A stretch of DNA of 48,400 bases. Origin: Burkholderiales bacterium (GTDB taxonomy: Bacteria; Pseudomonadota; Gammaproteobacteria; Burkholderiales; SG8-41). The notes below the pieces were generated by a model, which ran no database searches, had not been told where the DNA came from, and was given only the letters and a program-made list of their open reading frames with translations. The translations under genes and the position numbers were made by a program. Where the stretch lies: the NCBI GenBank assembly GCA_022843705.1, contig JALHND010000009.1:1-48400 (forward strand), read 5' to 3'. Of the stretch, positions 37,741 through 46,238 are shown in pieces; the first letter of the stretch is position 1, and every line of letters begins with the position of its first letter.

Positions 37741-38544
37741 ATGACCACCGACAACATCGTAGACATCCGCGACCTCGCGTTCTCCTACGGCAGCCACGAG
37801 ATCTTCAAGTCCGTCAGCCTGACCATCCCGCGCGGCAAGGTCATCGGCATCATGGGCGCCAGCGGCTGCGGCAAGTCGACACTGCTGCGGCTGATTGGCG
37901 CCCAGTTGCGGCCGGCCCGCGGCACGGTCACGGTGCTCGGACAGGACATCCACAGTCTCGACCGCGATGCGCTCTACCGGCTGCGCCGGAAGATGGGCAT
38001 GCAGTTCCAGCAGGGCGGCCTGTTCACCGATCTTTCGGTGTTCGAAAACATCGCCTTCCAGATGCGCGAGAAGAGCAGGCTGCCGGAAGACATGATCAAC
38101 GACCTGGTGCTGATGAAACTCAACGCCGTCGGCCTGCGTGGCGCGGCGAAGCTGATGCCTTCGGAATGTTCCGGCGGCATGGTGCGCCGGGTGGGCCTCG
38201 CGCGCGCGATCGCGCTCGATCCCGACCTGATCATGTACGACGAACCCTTCGCCGGCCTCGACCCGATTTCCTGCAACGTCGTCGGCAAGCTGATCCGGCG
38301 CCTGAACGACGCGCTGGGCGTGACCTCGATCGTGGTGTCCTACGACGCGCAGGAATCGCTGCGCTGCATCGACTATGTCTATTTTCTCGCCGACGGCAAG
38401 GTGGTTGCCCAGGGCACGACCGAAGAAGTGAAAAACTCCGCCGATCCCTTCGTCAAACAGTTCATCAAGGGTCTGCCCGACGGCCCGGTGCCCTTCCATT
38501 ACCGGCAGCAGGCTTATGCCGCAGACCTCGATCTGCCGGCATAA
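37741..38544 (+). CDS. ABC transporter ATP-binding protein, orphan MlaF-like paralogue
   Basis: [17 protein letters not shown] Walker A, CSGGMVRR signature, [13 protein letters not shown] Walker B; MlaF-like C-terminal [24 protein letters not shown] where MlaF in this window has THDVQEA. Confidence 0.93.
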
Positions 38545-38574: not shown

Positions 38575-39963
<1,389 letters not shown>

Positions 39964-39973
39964 TTAAGGGGTT

Positions 39974-40228: not shown

Positions 40229-40984
40229 TCAGTGACGCAGCTTGTAGCCCGATTTGAGCAGCCCCAGGGTCAGCCATGATAAGGCGATGAAACTGCCGCC
40301 GACAATCGCCAGGCTCAGCCAGGGTGAAGTATCCGATGCGCCGAAGAAGCCGTAACGGAAGCCGTCGATCATGTAGAACACGGGATTCAGGTGCGAAGCC
40401 GCCTGCCAGAATGGGGGCAGCGACTGGATCGAATAAAACACCCCGGACAGGAAAGTCAGCGGCAGGATGATGAAGTTGGTGAAGGCCGCCAGCTGGTCGA
40501 TCTTGTCGGAATGGATGCCGGCGACGATGCCCAGCGCGCCCATCACCGCGCTGCCGCAGACACCGAACAGCAGCGCCCATCCCGGATGGGCGACATTCAG
40601 GTCGGTGAACCACAGCGTCGCGAACAACACGCCGGCGCCGACCACCACGCCGCGCGCCATCGCCGCCAGCAGGTAGGCCAGGAAAAACTCGCGGTGCGAC
40701 AGCGGCGGCAGCAGCACGAACACGATGTTGCCGGTCATCTTCGACTGCATCAGGCTCGACGAGGCATTGGCAAAGGCATTCTGCAGCACCGACATCATCG
40801 CCAGGCCCGGCACCAGGAAGGCGATGTAATCCACCCCCGGGAAAACCTCCACCCGGCCGCGCAGCGCGTGGCCGAACACCAGCAGGTAGAGCAGCGCGGT
40901 CAGCACCGGCGCGAGCACGGTCTGCACGCTGACCTTCCAGAAGCGCAGCCATTCCTTGTAGAACAATGTGTAGAAACCGGTCAT
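40229..40984 (-). CDS. ABC-2 type transporter permease (YadH-like)
   Basis: MTGFYTLFYKEWLRFWKVSVQTVLAPVLTALLYLLVFG; position next to the YadG-like gene. Confidence 0.94.
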   Translation of the reverse strand: MTGFYTLFYKEWLRFWKVSVQTVLAPVLTALLYLLVFGHALRGRVEVFPGVDYIAFLVPGLAMMSVLQNAFANASSSLMQSKMTGNIVFVLLPPLSHREFFLAYLLAAMARGVVVGAGVLFATLWFTDLNVAHPGWALLFGVCGSAVMGALGIVAGIHSDKIDQLAAFTNFIILPLTFLSGVFYSIQSLPPFWQAASHLNPVFYMIDGFRYGFFGASDTSPWLSLAIVGGSFIALSWLTLGLLKSGYKLRH

Positions 40985-40992
40985 TTTTTTGT

Positions 40993-41070
40993 CGTCAGGG
41001 GTCAGGCGTGAAGAGTCAGGAGTGGGGATGGTTTGGATCTCACGCCTGACTCCTCGCTCGTCCCTCACGC
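40993..41070. repeat. dispersed GTCAGGCGTGA-type inverted repeat between ABC genes
   Basis: gtcaggggtcaggcgtgaagagtcaggagt ... ctcacgcctgactcctcgctcgtccctcacgcc. Confidence 0.65.
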
Positions 41071-41970
41071 CTTCCTCATGATCTGCACAAACACTTCCTC
41101 CAGATCCGGCTGCATGATCTCCATTTCCTGCACCGTGACGCCGTCCTCGCGCAATGCCGCCATCACCCGCTCCACCTCCGCGTAATCGGGCAGCGCGAGG
41201 CGGATGGCGCCGTCTTCCTCGCGCTGGGCGACCAGCGGCTCCAGGCGCACCGGCAGCGCACCGCCGAGGCGCAGTTCGACATAACAGCCGGAATGCAGCC
41301 GCAGCAGGTTCTCGGTCTTGTCGAGCGTGACGATGCGTCCCTGCTTGAGCATGGCCACCCGCCCGCACAATGCCTCGGCCTCCTCAAGGTAATGCGTGGT
41401 CAGCACGATGGTGTGGCCGTCGCGGTTCAGCCGCCGGATGAAACGCCACAGCGCCTGGCGCAGCTCGACATCGACGCCTGCGGTCGGTTCGTCGAGCACG
41501 ATCACCGGCGGCTTGTGCACCAGCGCCTGCGCCACCAGCACGCGGCGCTTCATGCCGCCGGACAGCGCACGCATGTTGGTGTCGGCCTTCGCCGTGAGGT
41601 CGAGATTTTCCAGCACCTCGTCGATCCACGCGCGGTTGTCGCGCAGGCCGAAATAACCCGACTGTATCGTCAGCGTCTCGCGCACGGTGAAAAACGGATC
41701 GAACACCAGTTCCTGCGGCACCACGCCCAGCGCGCGCCGCGCCGCGCGGTAATCGCCGCCGACGTCATGCCCCATGATCCGCAGGCTGCCGCCGTCCGGA
41801 CGCACCAGCCCGGCCAGGATGCTGATCAGCGTGGTCTTGCCGGCACCGTTGGGACCGAGCAGGCCGAAAAACTCCCCGGGCTCGACACGGAGGCTGACGC
41901 CAGCCAGCGCCTGCAGGCTGCCGTAACGCTTGGTGACATCGATGACTTCGATCGCGTGGGTCATTTGCAT
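41065..41970 (-). CDS. ABC transporter ATP-binding protein (YadG-like)
   Basis: GPNGAGKTTLISILAGL, LSGGMKRRVLVAQALVHKPPVIVLDEPTAGVDVE. Confidence 0.94.
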   Translation of the reverse strand: MQMTHAIEVIDVTKRYGSLQALAGVSLRVEPGEFFGLLGPNGAGKTTLISILAGLVRPDGGSLRIMGHDVGGDYRAARRALGVVPQELVFDPFFTVRETLTIQSGYFGLRDNRAWIDEVLENLDLTAKADTNMRALSGGMKRRVLVAQALVHKPPVIVLDEPTAGVDVELRQALWRFIRRLNRDGHTIVLTTHYLEEAEALCGRVAMLKQGRIVTLDKTENLLRLHSGCYVELRLGGALPVRLEPLVAQREEDGAIRLALPDYAEVERVMAALREDGVTVQEMEIMQPDLEEVFVQIMRKA

Positions 41971-42005
41971 CCGACAGGTGCGCCGCCGCGGCGGCGCGGT
42001 GCGGA

Positions 42006-42287
42006 CTATTCCTCGCCGACCAGTTCCGTGACGCCGTAGAGCTGCGCCAGGCTTTTCAGGTTGTCGGGCAGGCCGACATAACGGATGCTGCGGCCGCCGG
42101 CGAGCGCCGCGCGGCGCCACTCGAACAGCAGGCTGACCGCGGCCGAATCGACCTCGGTCACACCGGAAAGATCCAGCGTCACCTCCGGCGCCGTGAACTG
42201 CCGCAGGCCGTCCTCGCGCAATGCAAGGGCGGTTTCAAGATTGACGGCGCCTTTCAGCGTGCAGCGCCCGTCGTTACATTCGATCAT
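42006..42287 (-). CDS. mlaB: STAS-domain protein MlaB
   Basis: VTLDLSGVTEVDSAAVSLLFEWRRAA; position in mla operon. Confidence 0.9.
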   Translation of the reverse strand: MIECNDGRCTLKGAVNLETALALREDGLRQFTAPEVTLDLSGVTEVDSAAVSLLFEWRRAALAGGRSIRYVGLPDNLKSLAQLYGVTELVGEE

Positions 42288-42901
42288 TTCGCCTGCGCCA
42301 CCAGCGCGCGGTTCTTGTCACGCAGCGACGCGATCAGGCCGTCGATGCCGCCCTTGCGGATCTCGGTATTGAAGGTGCTGCGGTAGTTCTCCACCAGGCT
42401 GATGCCGCCGATCTTGACGTTGTAGACCTTCCAGCCGCCGTCGGTTTTTTCCATGCCGTAATCGACCTGCACCGGTTCGCCGCCGCCGGACTGGCGCACC
42501 AGCGAACGCACGGTGACATCGTTGTCATCGGCGGCCAGCTTCAGCGGGCGGTATTCGATCTTCTGGTCCTTGAACAGCACCAGCGAGGCGGTGTAGGTCT
42601 GCACCAGCAGCGCGCGGAATTCCGTGGTCAGCGCCTTGCGCTGCTCGGCATTCGCGGAGCTCCAGTTCTTGCCCAGCGCAAGCTGGGTCATGCCGGTGAA
42701 ATTGAAATGCGGCGCGATTTTGGTTTCGATCAGATCGCGCGCCTTCTTCTGGTTGCCGGACTGGATGTCCTTGTCGGCGCGCAGCACCGCGATCACCTCG
42801 TCGGTAACCGTGCGCGCGAGCACATCGGGTGGCGTCGCGGCAATTGCCGGAGCCATACCCAGGAATTGCAAAAACATTAATAAAATCAAATACTTACGCA
42901 T
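42284..42901 (-). CDS. mlaC: phospholipid-binding protein MlaC
   Basis: HFNFTGMTQLALGKNWSSANAEQRKALTTEFRALLVQTYTASL. Confidence 0.95.
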   Translation of the reverse strand: MRKYLILLMFLQFLGMAPAIAATPPDVLARTVTDEVIAVLRADKDIQSGNQKKARDLIETKIAPHFNFTGMTQLALGKNWSSANAEQRKALTTEFRALLVQTYTASLVLFKDQKIEYRPLKLAADDNDVTVRSLVRQSGGGEPVQVDYGMEKTDGGWKVYNVKIGGISLVENYRSTFNTEIRKGGIDGLIASLRDKNRALVAQAK

Positions 42902-42951
42902 AACACACCATCGCTCCCTGACGTCGAGTCGCCCTCATTGTCCTACTGCCG

Positions 42952-43425
42952 TTATTTGTTCGCCGGTCCGCCTTCGGCCGCCTTGTCGAAAAGGAACTGG
43001 CTGATCAGCTTTTCCAAGACCACCGCCGACTGCGTCAGCCGGATGTTGTCGCCGGCCTTCAGCATCTGGTCATCACCGCCGCCCTCGAGTCCGACGTACT
43101 GTTCGCCGAGCAGACCCGAAGTCAGGATCGAGGCCGTGGTGTCCTTCGGAAACTGGTAATTCTTTTCGATCGCCATCGTCACCTTGGCGGTGAAACGGTC
43201 ATTGTTGAAGCTGATCGAGGTCACGCGCCCGACCACGACACCGGCGCTCTTGATCGCCGCCCGCGGCTTCAGCCCGCCGATGTTGTCGAAGTTGGCGGTG
43301 ATCGAGTAGGTCTCACCGCTGCCGATGGTCGACATGTTGCCGACCTTGAACGCCAGGACCACCAGCGCGGCAATGCCCGCGACAACAAACAGCCCCACCC
43401 ACAAATCCAGCATTGATCTTTCCAT
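42952..43425 (-). CDS. mlaD: MCE-domain protein MlaD
   Basis: DLWVGLFVVAGIAALVVLAFKVGN; GGLKPRAAIKSAGVVVGRVTSI; SGLLGEQYVGLEGG. Confidence 0.96.
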   Translation of the reverse strand: MERSMLDLWVGLFVVAGIAALVVLAFKVGNMSTIGSGETYSITANFDNIGGLKPRAAIKSAGVVVGRVTSISFNNDRFTAKVTMAIEKNYQFPKDTTASILTSGLLGEQYVGLEGGGDDQMLKAGDNIRLTQSAVVLEKLISQFLFDKAAEGGPANK

Positions 43426-43443
43426 TAGGCACCTTTGTGCATC

Positions 43444-44238
43444 TTAGACAGCACTGAACATGAAAGAGGTCAGGATGAAATCCAGACCGAGTATCGCCAG
43501 CGATGACGTTACCACGGTGCGCGTGGTCGCGCCCGAAACGCCCTCGGCCGTCGGCGGCGCGTCGTAACCCTCGAACAGCGCGATCCAGGTCACCGCGACG
43601 CCGAACACGAAGCTCTTGATCACGCCGTTCAGGACATCCTCGCGGACATCGACCGCGCTCTGCATCTGCGACCAGAAGGAACCTTCGTCGACGCCGATCA
43701 GCACCACGCCGACAACGTAGCCGCCGAACACGCCCATCGCACTGAACATCGCCGCCAGCAGCGGCATCGAGATGACACCCGCCCAGAACCGCGGCGCCAC
43801 CACGCGGGCGATCGGATCGACCGCCATCATTTCCATCGCCGACAGCTGTTCGGTCGCCTTCATCAGGCCGATCTCGGCGGTCATCGCCGAACCGGCGCGG
43901 CTGGCGAACAGCAGCGCCGACACCACCGGCCCCAGCTCCCGCACCAGCGACAGCGCGACCAGCACGCCGAGCGCCGATTCCGAGCCGTAGGTGGTCAGCG
44001 TCTGGTATCCCTGCAGGCCCAGCACCATGCCGACAAACAGTCCCGACACCAGGATGATGATCAGCGACAGCACGCCGGTGTAGTACAGCTCGCGCACGAC
44101 CAGACGCGGCCGCGCGAGGCAGGTGCCGGAATGGGCGATGGTCAGCCCGATGAAACGCGCGGCATAACCGAGGCGCAGCACGTTGTCGATCGCCCGGGCA
44201 CCGATGCCGCGCACCGTCGGCAGTGATCTATGCGGCAC
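43444..44238 (-). CDS. mlaE: lipid asymmetry maintenance ABC permease MlaE
   Basis: [58 protein letters not shown]. Confidence 0.97.
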
Positions 44239-45043
44239 GGCGCCCCCCCATCCTCAGTTCCGCCGCGTAATCGCCGCTCGGATACTGGTAGGCCACCGGC
44301 CCTTCCGCCTCGCCATGCACGAACTGGTGCACCAGCGGATCGGTGTTCGCGCGCAGCTCTTCCGGCGTGCCGTGGGCCTTCATCTTGCCGTCGGACAGGT
44401 AATACACGTAATCCACCACATCAAGCGCCTCCTGCACGTCATGGGTCACCACCAGCGAAGTCGTGCCCAGCGTGTCGTTCAGTTCGCGGACCAGGTTGGC
44501 GATCACGCCCAGCGAGATCGGATCCAGCCCGGTGAAGGGTTCGTCATACATCATGATCATCGGGTCGAGCGCAATTGCCCGCGCCAGCGCCACCCGCCGC
44601 GCCATGCCGCCCGAGAGTTCCGCCGGCATCAGTTTCGCCGCGCCGCGCAGGCCCACCGCATGCAGCTTCATCATCACCAGGTCGCGGATCATGCTCTCCG
44701 GCAGCCCGGTGTGCTCGCGCATCTGGAAGGCGACGTTGTCGTAGACGGACAGGTCGGTGAACAGCGCGCCGAACTGGAACAGCATGCCCATGCGCCGGCG
44801 CATGTTGTAGATGCCCTGCTGATCGAGCGCGCTGGTGCACTGGCCGTTGACCCAGACCTCGCCCGAGGTCGGCTTCATGACCCCGCCGATCAGCCGCAGC
44901 AGCGTGGTCTTGCCCGAACCGCTGATGCCCATCAGCGCGACGACCTTGCCGCGCGGAATGGTCATGTTGATGCCGCTCAGGATCGGACGCCGCCCGTAGG
45001 CGAAGTTCACGTCCTTGATTTCGATCAGGGTTTCGGGTGCCAC
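44228..45043 (-). CDS. mlaF: lipid asymmetry maintenance ABC ATPase MlaF (GTG start)
   Basis: [64 protein letters not shown]. Confidence 0.96.
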
Positions 45044-45173
45044 GGACAGGCCGTCGTCGCTGCAGTAAAGTGCGGATTCTAAACGAGAACGGCAGTACGG
45101 CCCAAGGCGCCGCGGATTTGGCCGGCAGCGCCCGCGGCTGGCATCATGCGCCATCACGCCCGCGATCATCCCC

Positions 45174-46238
45174 ATGCGTTTTGACCTGTTTTACGAACTG
45201 GCCCTGCCCGCGCACAGCGCGCGCAGCGAAACCACGCTCTACGCCGACACCCTTGCCGAAATCGCGCTTGCCGACGAACTCGGTTACGGCTGTGCATGGC
45301 TGGTCGAGCACCATTTCATGCGCGCCTATTCGCATGCCTCGAAGCCTGAAATCCTGCTCGGCGCCGCCGCCGCGCGCAGCACGCGCATCCGCCTCGGCCA
45401 CGCCATCATCCCCTTGCCTCTGCACCACCCGGTGCACGTCGCCGAAAGGGTGGCAACGCTCGACGTGCTGTCGGGCGGACGGCTGGAAGTCGGCATCGGC
45501 CGTGGTTTTTCCCCGCGTGAATACGCCGTTTTCGGCGGCGACATGGCGGACAGCCGGGCTCTGGTCGAGGAAAACCTCGCGGTGCTGCGTGCATCCTTCC
45601 GGCCGGGCGCGCTGAACCACCGGGGCCGCCGTTACGCCTTCGACGACCTCGACATCGTCCCGCGCGTCGTGCAGCAGCCGCATCCGCCGCTGTGGACCGC
45701 CGCAGTCAGCCCCGAAACCTGGGACTGGGCAGCCGCGCAGCAGTTGGGCGCGCTGGCCGGCCCGTTCAAGCCCTGGTTCATGGTCGAGCAGGACCTGCGG
45801 CGCTACCGCAGCGCCTGGACCCACGCCGAAGCGCCGCGCGCCGGCATGACCCTGGGCGTGTTGTGCCTCGCCGACGGCGCGCGCGCAAAGGCACTGGCGC
45901 AGGAGGCCTTCCGCTGGTTCTACGGCGAACTTTACCGGACCACGCTGCCGGTGCTGGAAAAACTCTATCCGGGGTACGAACACCTGCATGAGCTGGGCCG
46001 TTTCCGCAGCCTGATGAAACTCGGCGTCAACCTCGGCCTCACCGACTTCGCCGGCCTCACCGTGGTCGGCACGCCGCAGGAATGCATCGCCCGGCTGCGC
46101 AAGTACCAGGCCGCCGGCATCACCCATATCCTCTGCGCCTTCGGCGCCGGCGCCCTCGACACCGCAACCACGCGCGAATCGATGACCCTGTTCGCGCGCG
46201 AAGTGATGCCGGCATTCGCGGCGGGCGCCCGCGCTTGA
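45174..46238 (+). CDS. LLM class flavin-dependent oxidoreductase (luciferase-like)
   Basis: MRFDLFYEL; WLVEHHFM; LGHAIIPLPLHHPVHVAERVATLDVLSGGRLEVGIGRGFSPREY. Confidence 0.93.
   Translation: MRFDLFYELALPAHSARSETTLYADTLAEIALADELGYGCAWLVEHHFMRAYSHASKPEILLGAAAARSTRIRLGHAIIPLPLHHPVHVAERVATLDVLSGGRLEVGIGRGFSPREYAVFGGDMADSRALVEENLAVLRASFRPGALNHRGRRYAFDDLDIVPRVVQQPHPPLWTAAVSPETWDWAAAQQLGALAGPFKPWFMVEQDLRRYRSAWTHAEAPRAGMTLGVLCLADGARAKALAQEAFRWFYGELYRTTLPVLEKLYPGYEHLHELGRFRSLMKLGVNLGLTDFAGLTVVGTPQECIARLRKYQAAGITHILCAFGAGALDTATTRESMTLFAREVMPAFAAGARA

Follow-up and report, generated by a model that had tools for sequence, protein, structure and literature searches.

A conserved subfamily of the Mla ATPase MlaF with tyrosine at the switch-histidine position in Burkholderiales

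Introduction

A 48,400-nucleotide stretch of a Burkholderiales genome (GCA_022843705.1, contig JALHND010000009.1; the whole stretch is referred to as the window) encodes, besides the ATPase MlaF of the Mla phospholipid transporter, a paralogue of MlaF in which the H-loop (switch) histidine is replaced by tyrosine. This protein, here called MlaF-Y, represents a real and conserved MlaF subfamily with a one-time replacement of the switch histidine. The subfamily is apparently undescribed, as no description of the paralogue was found in the literature searched. The H-loop histidine of ABC ATPases is normally essential. We tentatively propose, as the best explanation at hand, that MlaF-Y is a dedicated second nucleotide-binding domain (NBD) of the Mla transporter that acts in trans with MlaE and MlaB, likely as one half of an asymmetric MlaF/MlaF-Y pair, giving a slowed or biased pump.

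The gene and its product

The reading frame of mlaF-Y is uninterrupted and encodes an intact MlaF-like ABC ATPase (Table 1), which is 58% identical over the domain to the true MlaF of the window. The two proteins also match along the C-terminal tail, and the first-pass annotation was right to describe an orphan MlaF paralogue without mlaE alongside. The best NCBIfam match of MlaF-Y is MlaF (PRK11831, 354 bits), with the curated cut-off of 441 bits not reached; the true MlaF of the window, with 372 bits, likewise stays below it. By sequence and fold the protein is an ABC ATPase nearest to MlaF, the closest solved structures being MlaF of Pseudomonas aeruginosa and Escherichia coli and the nearest fold neighbours the E. 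coli MlaF entries 6xgz and 6xgy. The structure model has a mean pLDDT of 70, with the Q-loop and the tail as its weakest parts; it confirms the fold alone, and no side-chain arguments were drawn from it. Scans of the gene for a promoter and a terminator found neither.

Table 1. Features of the window, numbered from its first nucleotide
Feature	Position	Strand	Remarks and basis
MlaF-Y (MlaF paralogue with H-loop Tyr)	37741..38544	+	267 aa; translation, family match, same-genus homologues, fold
Walker A of MlaF-Y	37855..37881	+	residues 39-47, Lys45 invariant; translation, alignment
Q-loop of MlaF-Y, QFQQGGLF	38002..38025	+	residues 88-95, Gln90 retained, flanks swapped, diagnostic of the Tyr clade; alignment
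Signature motif of MlaF-Y, CSGGM	38167..38181	+	residues 143-147; alignment
Walker B end of MlaF-Y, MYDEP	38233..38247	+	residues 165-169, catalytic Glu168 invariant; translation, alignment
Codon TAC of Tyr201	38341..38343	+	H-loop His position; translation, alignment
C-terminal 'handshake' extension of MlaF-Y	38470..38541	+	residues 244-267; Tyr259 and Leu263 correspond to Tyr261 and Leu265 of E. coli
MlaB (STAS)	42006..42287	-	proposed partner in trans
MlaC	42284..42901	-	Mla operon
MlaD	42952..43425	-	Mla operon
MlaE permease	43444..44238	-	proposed membrane partner in trans
MlaF (His-type)	44228..45043	-	proposed partner or counterpart; reading frame 44228-45175, likely start about 45043

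Catalytic motifs

In ABC transporters, each ATP site draws both Walker motifs, the Q-loop and the H-loop from one subunit and the signature motif from the other (PMC7756269). In MlaF-Y the H-loop position is occupied by Tyr201, as the first-pass annotation had read it, where the true MlaF has VVTHDVQEA. The same annotation had called Walker A, the Q-loop and the Walker B glutamate intact, which is correct for the residues themselves, the Q-loop glutamine included, but it overlooked that the neighbours of this glutamine are replaced (QFQQGG in MlaF-Y versus LFQFGA in the true MlaF). It had further pointed to the signature CSGGM, which is indeed present but is limited to the genus of the window, LSGGM being found in all Tyr-type proteins seen outside it; with its methionine, the signature of MlaF-Y is still of the LSGGM type that marks MlaF.

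Position 201 was compared among 180 distinct MlaF-type sequences, assembled from whole-protein searches of the family and the order, a scan of named genomes and a Q-loop pattern search, and is tyrosine in 95 and histidine in 85, with no other residue. None of the 95 Tyr-type sequences varies at the Walker A Lys, the Q-loop Gln, the signature Ser and Gly, the Walker B Glu or the D-loop Asp. All 95 also carry a Q-loop of the form [QM]FQx[GSN]G, whereas among the 85 His types the form is [LM][FY]QxGA in all except a protein from outside the order, which has LFQQGG. Q-loop motifs served to find members in the named-genome and pattern scans, the other searches used the whole protein, and the association of tyrosine with the altered Q-loop holds in both kinds of search alike. 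Of roughly 35 ABC domains aligned from the window's genome, MlaF-Y alone has an H-loop tyrosine; the only other residue replacing histidine there is a glutamine in a LivF-like protein.

As in degenerate sites, one of two NBDs lacks a catalytic residue, the genomes with an H-loop Tyr also encoding a His-type paralogue; the Walker B glutamate, the replacement of which is usual in exporters, is invariant.

Distribution, age and constraint

The first-pass annotation had proposed checking whether the change from histidine to tyrosine is conserved, and it is: an orthologue with tyrosine (71-97% identity) occurs in 20/20 same-genus genomes searched, and the 95 Tyr-type sequences span 13 families. In a tree calculated without the Q-loop and H-loop columns, a single His/Tyr change is needed (SH-aLRT 86); an earlier tree from all columns supported the Tyr clade with 99/97. 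When the order was sampled evenly, the diagnostic Q-loop was found in 75 of 399 genomes, belonging to 13 of 51 families; this is a lower bound, with at least one true member (G359) missed by the Q-loop pattern. Tyrosine was present in all 20 of the pattern-positive genomes that were newly fetched and read. Named carriers include metagenome-assembled genomes (MAGs) of Thiobacillus, Sulfuricella, Sulfuritalea, Sterolibacterium and Rhodocyclaceae. No true member was found in some 180 genomes of the class from outside the order; of two candidates, G528 has a look-alike Q-loop yet is His-type, and G473 gave no MlaF-like match. Presence is patchy inside several families, and hence loss or transfer has occurred.

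Five loci in this material (L064-L068) come from public MAGs of the window's betaproteobacterial family that are titled Bordetella parapertussis, which we infer to be a naming error for environmental MAGs. A contig with a Burkholderiales-like MlaF that is titled Klebsiella pneumoniae (L094) looks like another mislabelled environmental MAG.

The Tyr-type gene is under purifying selection comparable to that on mlaF (dN/dS 0.07-0.17 versus 0.065-0.14), the genes of relatives contain no stops, and the tyrosine is encoded by both TAC and TAT. A Tyr unique to one strain, a sequencing error or a loss of coding constraint in relatives would have spoken against the first-pass reading, and none of these applies, since conservation of the residue across 13 families makes it neither an error nor a strain accident. 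The probability that MlaF-Y is a decaying duplicate, a pseudogene or an artefact, in favour of which nothing speaks other than the altered catalytic residue, is therefore negligible.

Locus and neighbouring genes

MlaF-Y lies between murA and hisG, as first annotated; both flanking genes are on the minus strand, so that it is convergent with murA, from which it is separated by 30 bases, and divergent from hisG. The mla operon of the window, on the far side of murA, runs mlaF-E-D-C-B followed by an ABC-2 ATPase/permease pair on the minus strand. The gene is an orphan at every locus examined, with no mlaE directly adjoining it in any of them and no mlaD encoded with it, and it comes close to an mla operon solely at murA-hisG, where it lies 6.5 kb from mlaF. 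In the family of the window the Tyr-type gene is either found at murA-hisG, where both orientations occur, or followed directly on the same strand by a lytic transglycosylase (SLT_2) gene, as at eight loci (L053, L054, L055, L057, L058, L059, L065 and L067). Outside this family the neighbours vary, and no functional neighbour or permease conserved beside the gene across families was found.

The order F-E-D-C-B at 42006-45043 leaves no space for mlaA (vacJ) between mlaD and mlaC and differs from the mlaFEDvacJ arrangement of Burkholderia cenocepacia. The ABC-2-type ATPase and permease genes (40229-42120), located between mlaB and murA in an order that is kept across many Burkholderiales mla loci, may be the two accessory genes beside mla in B. 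cenocepacia whose role is unclear (PMC10412643). Just upstream of murA, at 39835-39970, short repeats of the CTCTGTG type form two inverted stretches (CCACAGAGAACACAGAG ... CTCTGTGTCCTCTGTGACCTCTGTGG); the repeats have 13 near-matches in the window's genome, several of them in facing pairs, a reversed-pattern control gave none, and the pair is possibly a dispersed palindromic element.

Docking surfaces and available partners

In E. coli, MlaB is bound by the helical subdomain of MlaF together with the C-terminal tail of the partner subunit, and this tail is required for MlaFEDB assembly (PMC7367683). MlaF-Y retains the handshake extension, and a DGPV-type tail is found in the clade, although the handshake tyrosine is absent from some of its families (f43, f23). 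Tyr and His types share 74% identity in the helical subdomain, compared with 78% within each type, whereas Q-loop identity between the types falls to 57%; the tail is conserved to the same degree within the Tyr type (62%) and within the His type (58%). The ATPases encoded at other MCE loci show 30-46% identity in the helical subdomain and lack the tail. Because MlaF-Y keeps both regions, in which other MCE ATPases differ, sequence comparison points indirectly to ordinary MlaE and MlaB as its probable partners.

MlaE is present in 15/15 Tyr-type genomes tested, and each of the MlaE loci fetched from these 15 carriers has its own adjacent His-type ATPase, except for two divergent MlaE-like genes. 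For these two, L197 (G097:C15:404340) and L198 (G200:C8:2979), no MlaF-type ATPase was recognised within 1.5 kb. A search for other mlaE genes, also suggested by the first-pass annotation, yielded no spare cognate copy: profile searches of G105 and G222 (96% and 99% complete) found a single MlaE each, located beside a His-type MlaF, with an MlaB-like match about 1.2 kb past it, which rules out a dedicated spare MlaE for MlaF-Y in these two genomes. The second MlaE of the window's own genome was rejected as a candidate partner as it has its own His-type ATPase.

Comparison with known systems

MlaF-Y shares the fold, Walker A and B, the SGGM-type signature, the helical subdomain and the handshake tail with MlaF of solved structures (PDB 6XGY, 6XBD and 7CH8) and differs in its H-loop tyrosine, rewritten Q-loop and orphan locus. 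The ATPase of the second MCE/MlaE locus (G000:C73) is likewise the NBD of an MCE system and has an LSGGM signature, but it is only 44% identical, has an H-loop histidine and its own linked MlaE, and lacks the handshake tail. A precedent for unequal H-loops in the window's genome is a pair of NBDs, which we take to be LivF and LivG of a branched-chain amino acid importer, with one His and one Gln H-loop and the Walker B glutamate kept; however, the replacement is Gln rather than Tyr, and the Liv genes are adjacent in one operon. The same His-to-Tyr replacement occurs naturally in the degenerate NBD1 of the fungal PDR transporters Pdr5 and Cdr1 (PMC7756269, PMC8124828). In these, Walker A, Walker B and the Q-loop glutamine are replaced as well and both NBDs are part of one chain, whereas in MlaF-Y, a separate bacterial subunit, the H-loop is the sole changed catalytic position. 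For MsmX-type shared ATPases we know of no H-loop variant family. These NBDs act on permeases in trans, as proposed for MlaF-Y, but they serve sugar importers and several permeases (PMC7658222).

A possible role in the Mla transporter and alternatives

All solved MlaFEDB complexes, to our knowledge, contain two identical MlaF subunits. We hypothesize that mlaF was duplicated early in Burkholderiales (in the GTDB sense) and that MlaF-Y was then fixed as a subunit that would act in trans, docking on MlaB and on the coupling helix of ordinary MlaE. Through the C-terminal handshake it would most likely pair with ordinary MlaF, forming an asymmetric NBD dimer. The composite ATP site with the histidine of MlaF would then hydrolyse normally, while at the site with Tyr201 and the altered Q-loop ATP would be bound and hydrolysis slow, or its coupling altered, so that expression of MlaF-Y would give a slower or biased transport cycle. 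Retention of the Walker B glutamate suggests that the Tyr site is slow or retuned rather than dead. This assembly with MlaE, MlaB and MlaF, the slowed hydrolysis and the physiological role are what we infer from the conserved features described above. Two of these features could also count against the proposed asymmetric pair: the Q-loop residues that differ are part of the loop touching the transmembrane partner, which could consequently differ from MlaE, and, since classical degenerate sites lack the Walker B glutamate retained here, hydrolysis may be near normal. The loss of the handshake tyrosine in some families of the clade and the patchy presence of the gene inside several families also weigh against the pair.

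If, on the other hand, MlaF-Y replaces MlaF on MlaE at times and forms an alternative homodimeric motor, Tyr201 and the Q-loop would constitute a working, perhaps retuned, site. The invariance of the remaining catalytic residues, the retained tail and helical subdomain and the constant pairing of the Q-loop change with Tyr, as expected of a compensated active site, agree with such a motor, as does the tolerance of H-loop replacements at some sites, such as Asn or Gln in NBS2 of MRP1. We nevertheless consider it rather unlikely, as the histidine is otherwise invariant in the family (85/85) and a simple replacement motor needs no tyrosine fixed over 13 families. A different, unlinked membrane partner, be it a non-MlaE permease or several permeases sharing one motor as with MsmX (PMC7658222), would account for the replaced neighbours of the Q-loop glutamine, since these lie in the loop meeting the coupling helix, and for the lack of a conserved locus. 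This, too, is unlikely to be the answer, with an MlaF-specific tail and a near-identical helical subdomain retained and no neighbouring permease conserved across families.

The first-pass annotation regarded MlaF-Y as hydrolysis-impaired and perhaps a brake or dominant modulator. Both readings remain conjectural: the catalytic glutamate never varies, and in other systems replacing the H-loop residue can have effects from complete inactivity to none that matters. A non-transporting regulator, acting as a pure brake by titrating MlaB or by capping MlaF as its dead counterpart, would be compatible with the H-loop replacement and the conserved MlaB-binding and handshake regions, but mere titration would need neither the Walker A Lys and Walker B Glu nor the signature Ser/Gly and D-loop Asp, all of which are invariant. 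Such a role is distinctly improbable; the data fit better with an asymmetric NBD pair in which one partner is degenerate.

Implications

In its most far-reaching form, the proposed pairing of MlaF-Y with MlaF would make MlaF-Y a widespread switch subunit that turns the symmetric MlaF2 pump into an asymmetric one with one degenerate ATP site, altering how fast or in which direction phospholipids move. This extension is doubtful; should it be true, we know of no earlier example of an Mla transporter with a heteromeric motor. The direction and regulation of Mla transport are unsettled. As MlaF-Y is found together with a single MlaE in two genomes, the question of its partner is directly testable. 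An H-loop tyrosine that has become fixed with the other catalytic residues kept also constitutes a natural evolutionary experiment on the role of the switch histidine.
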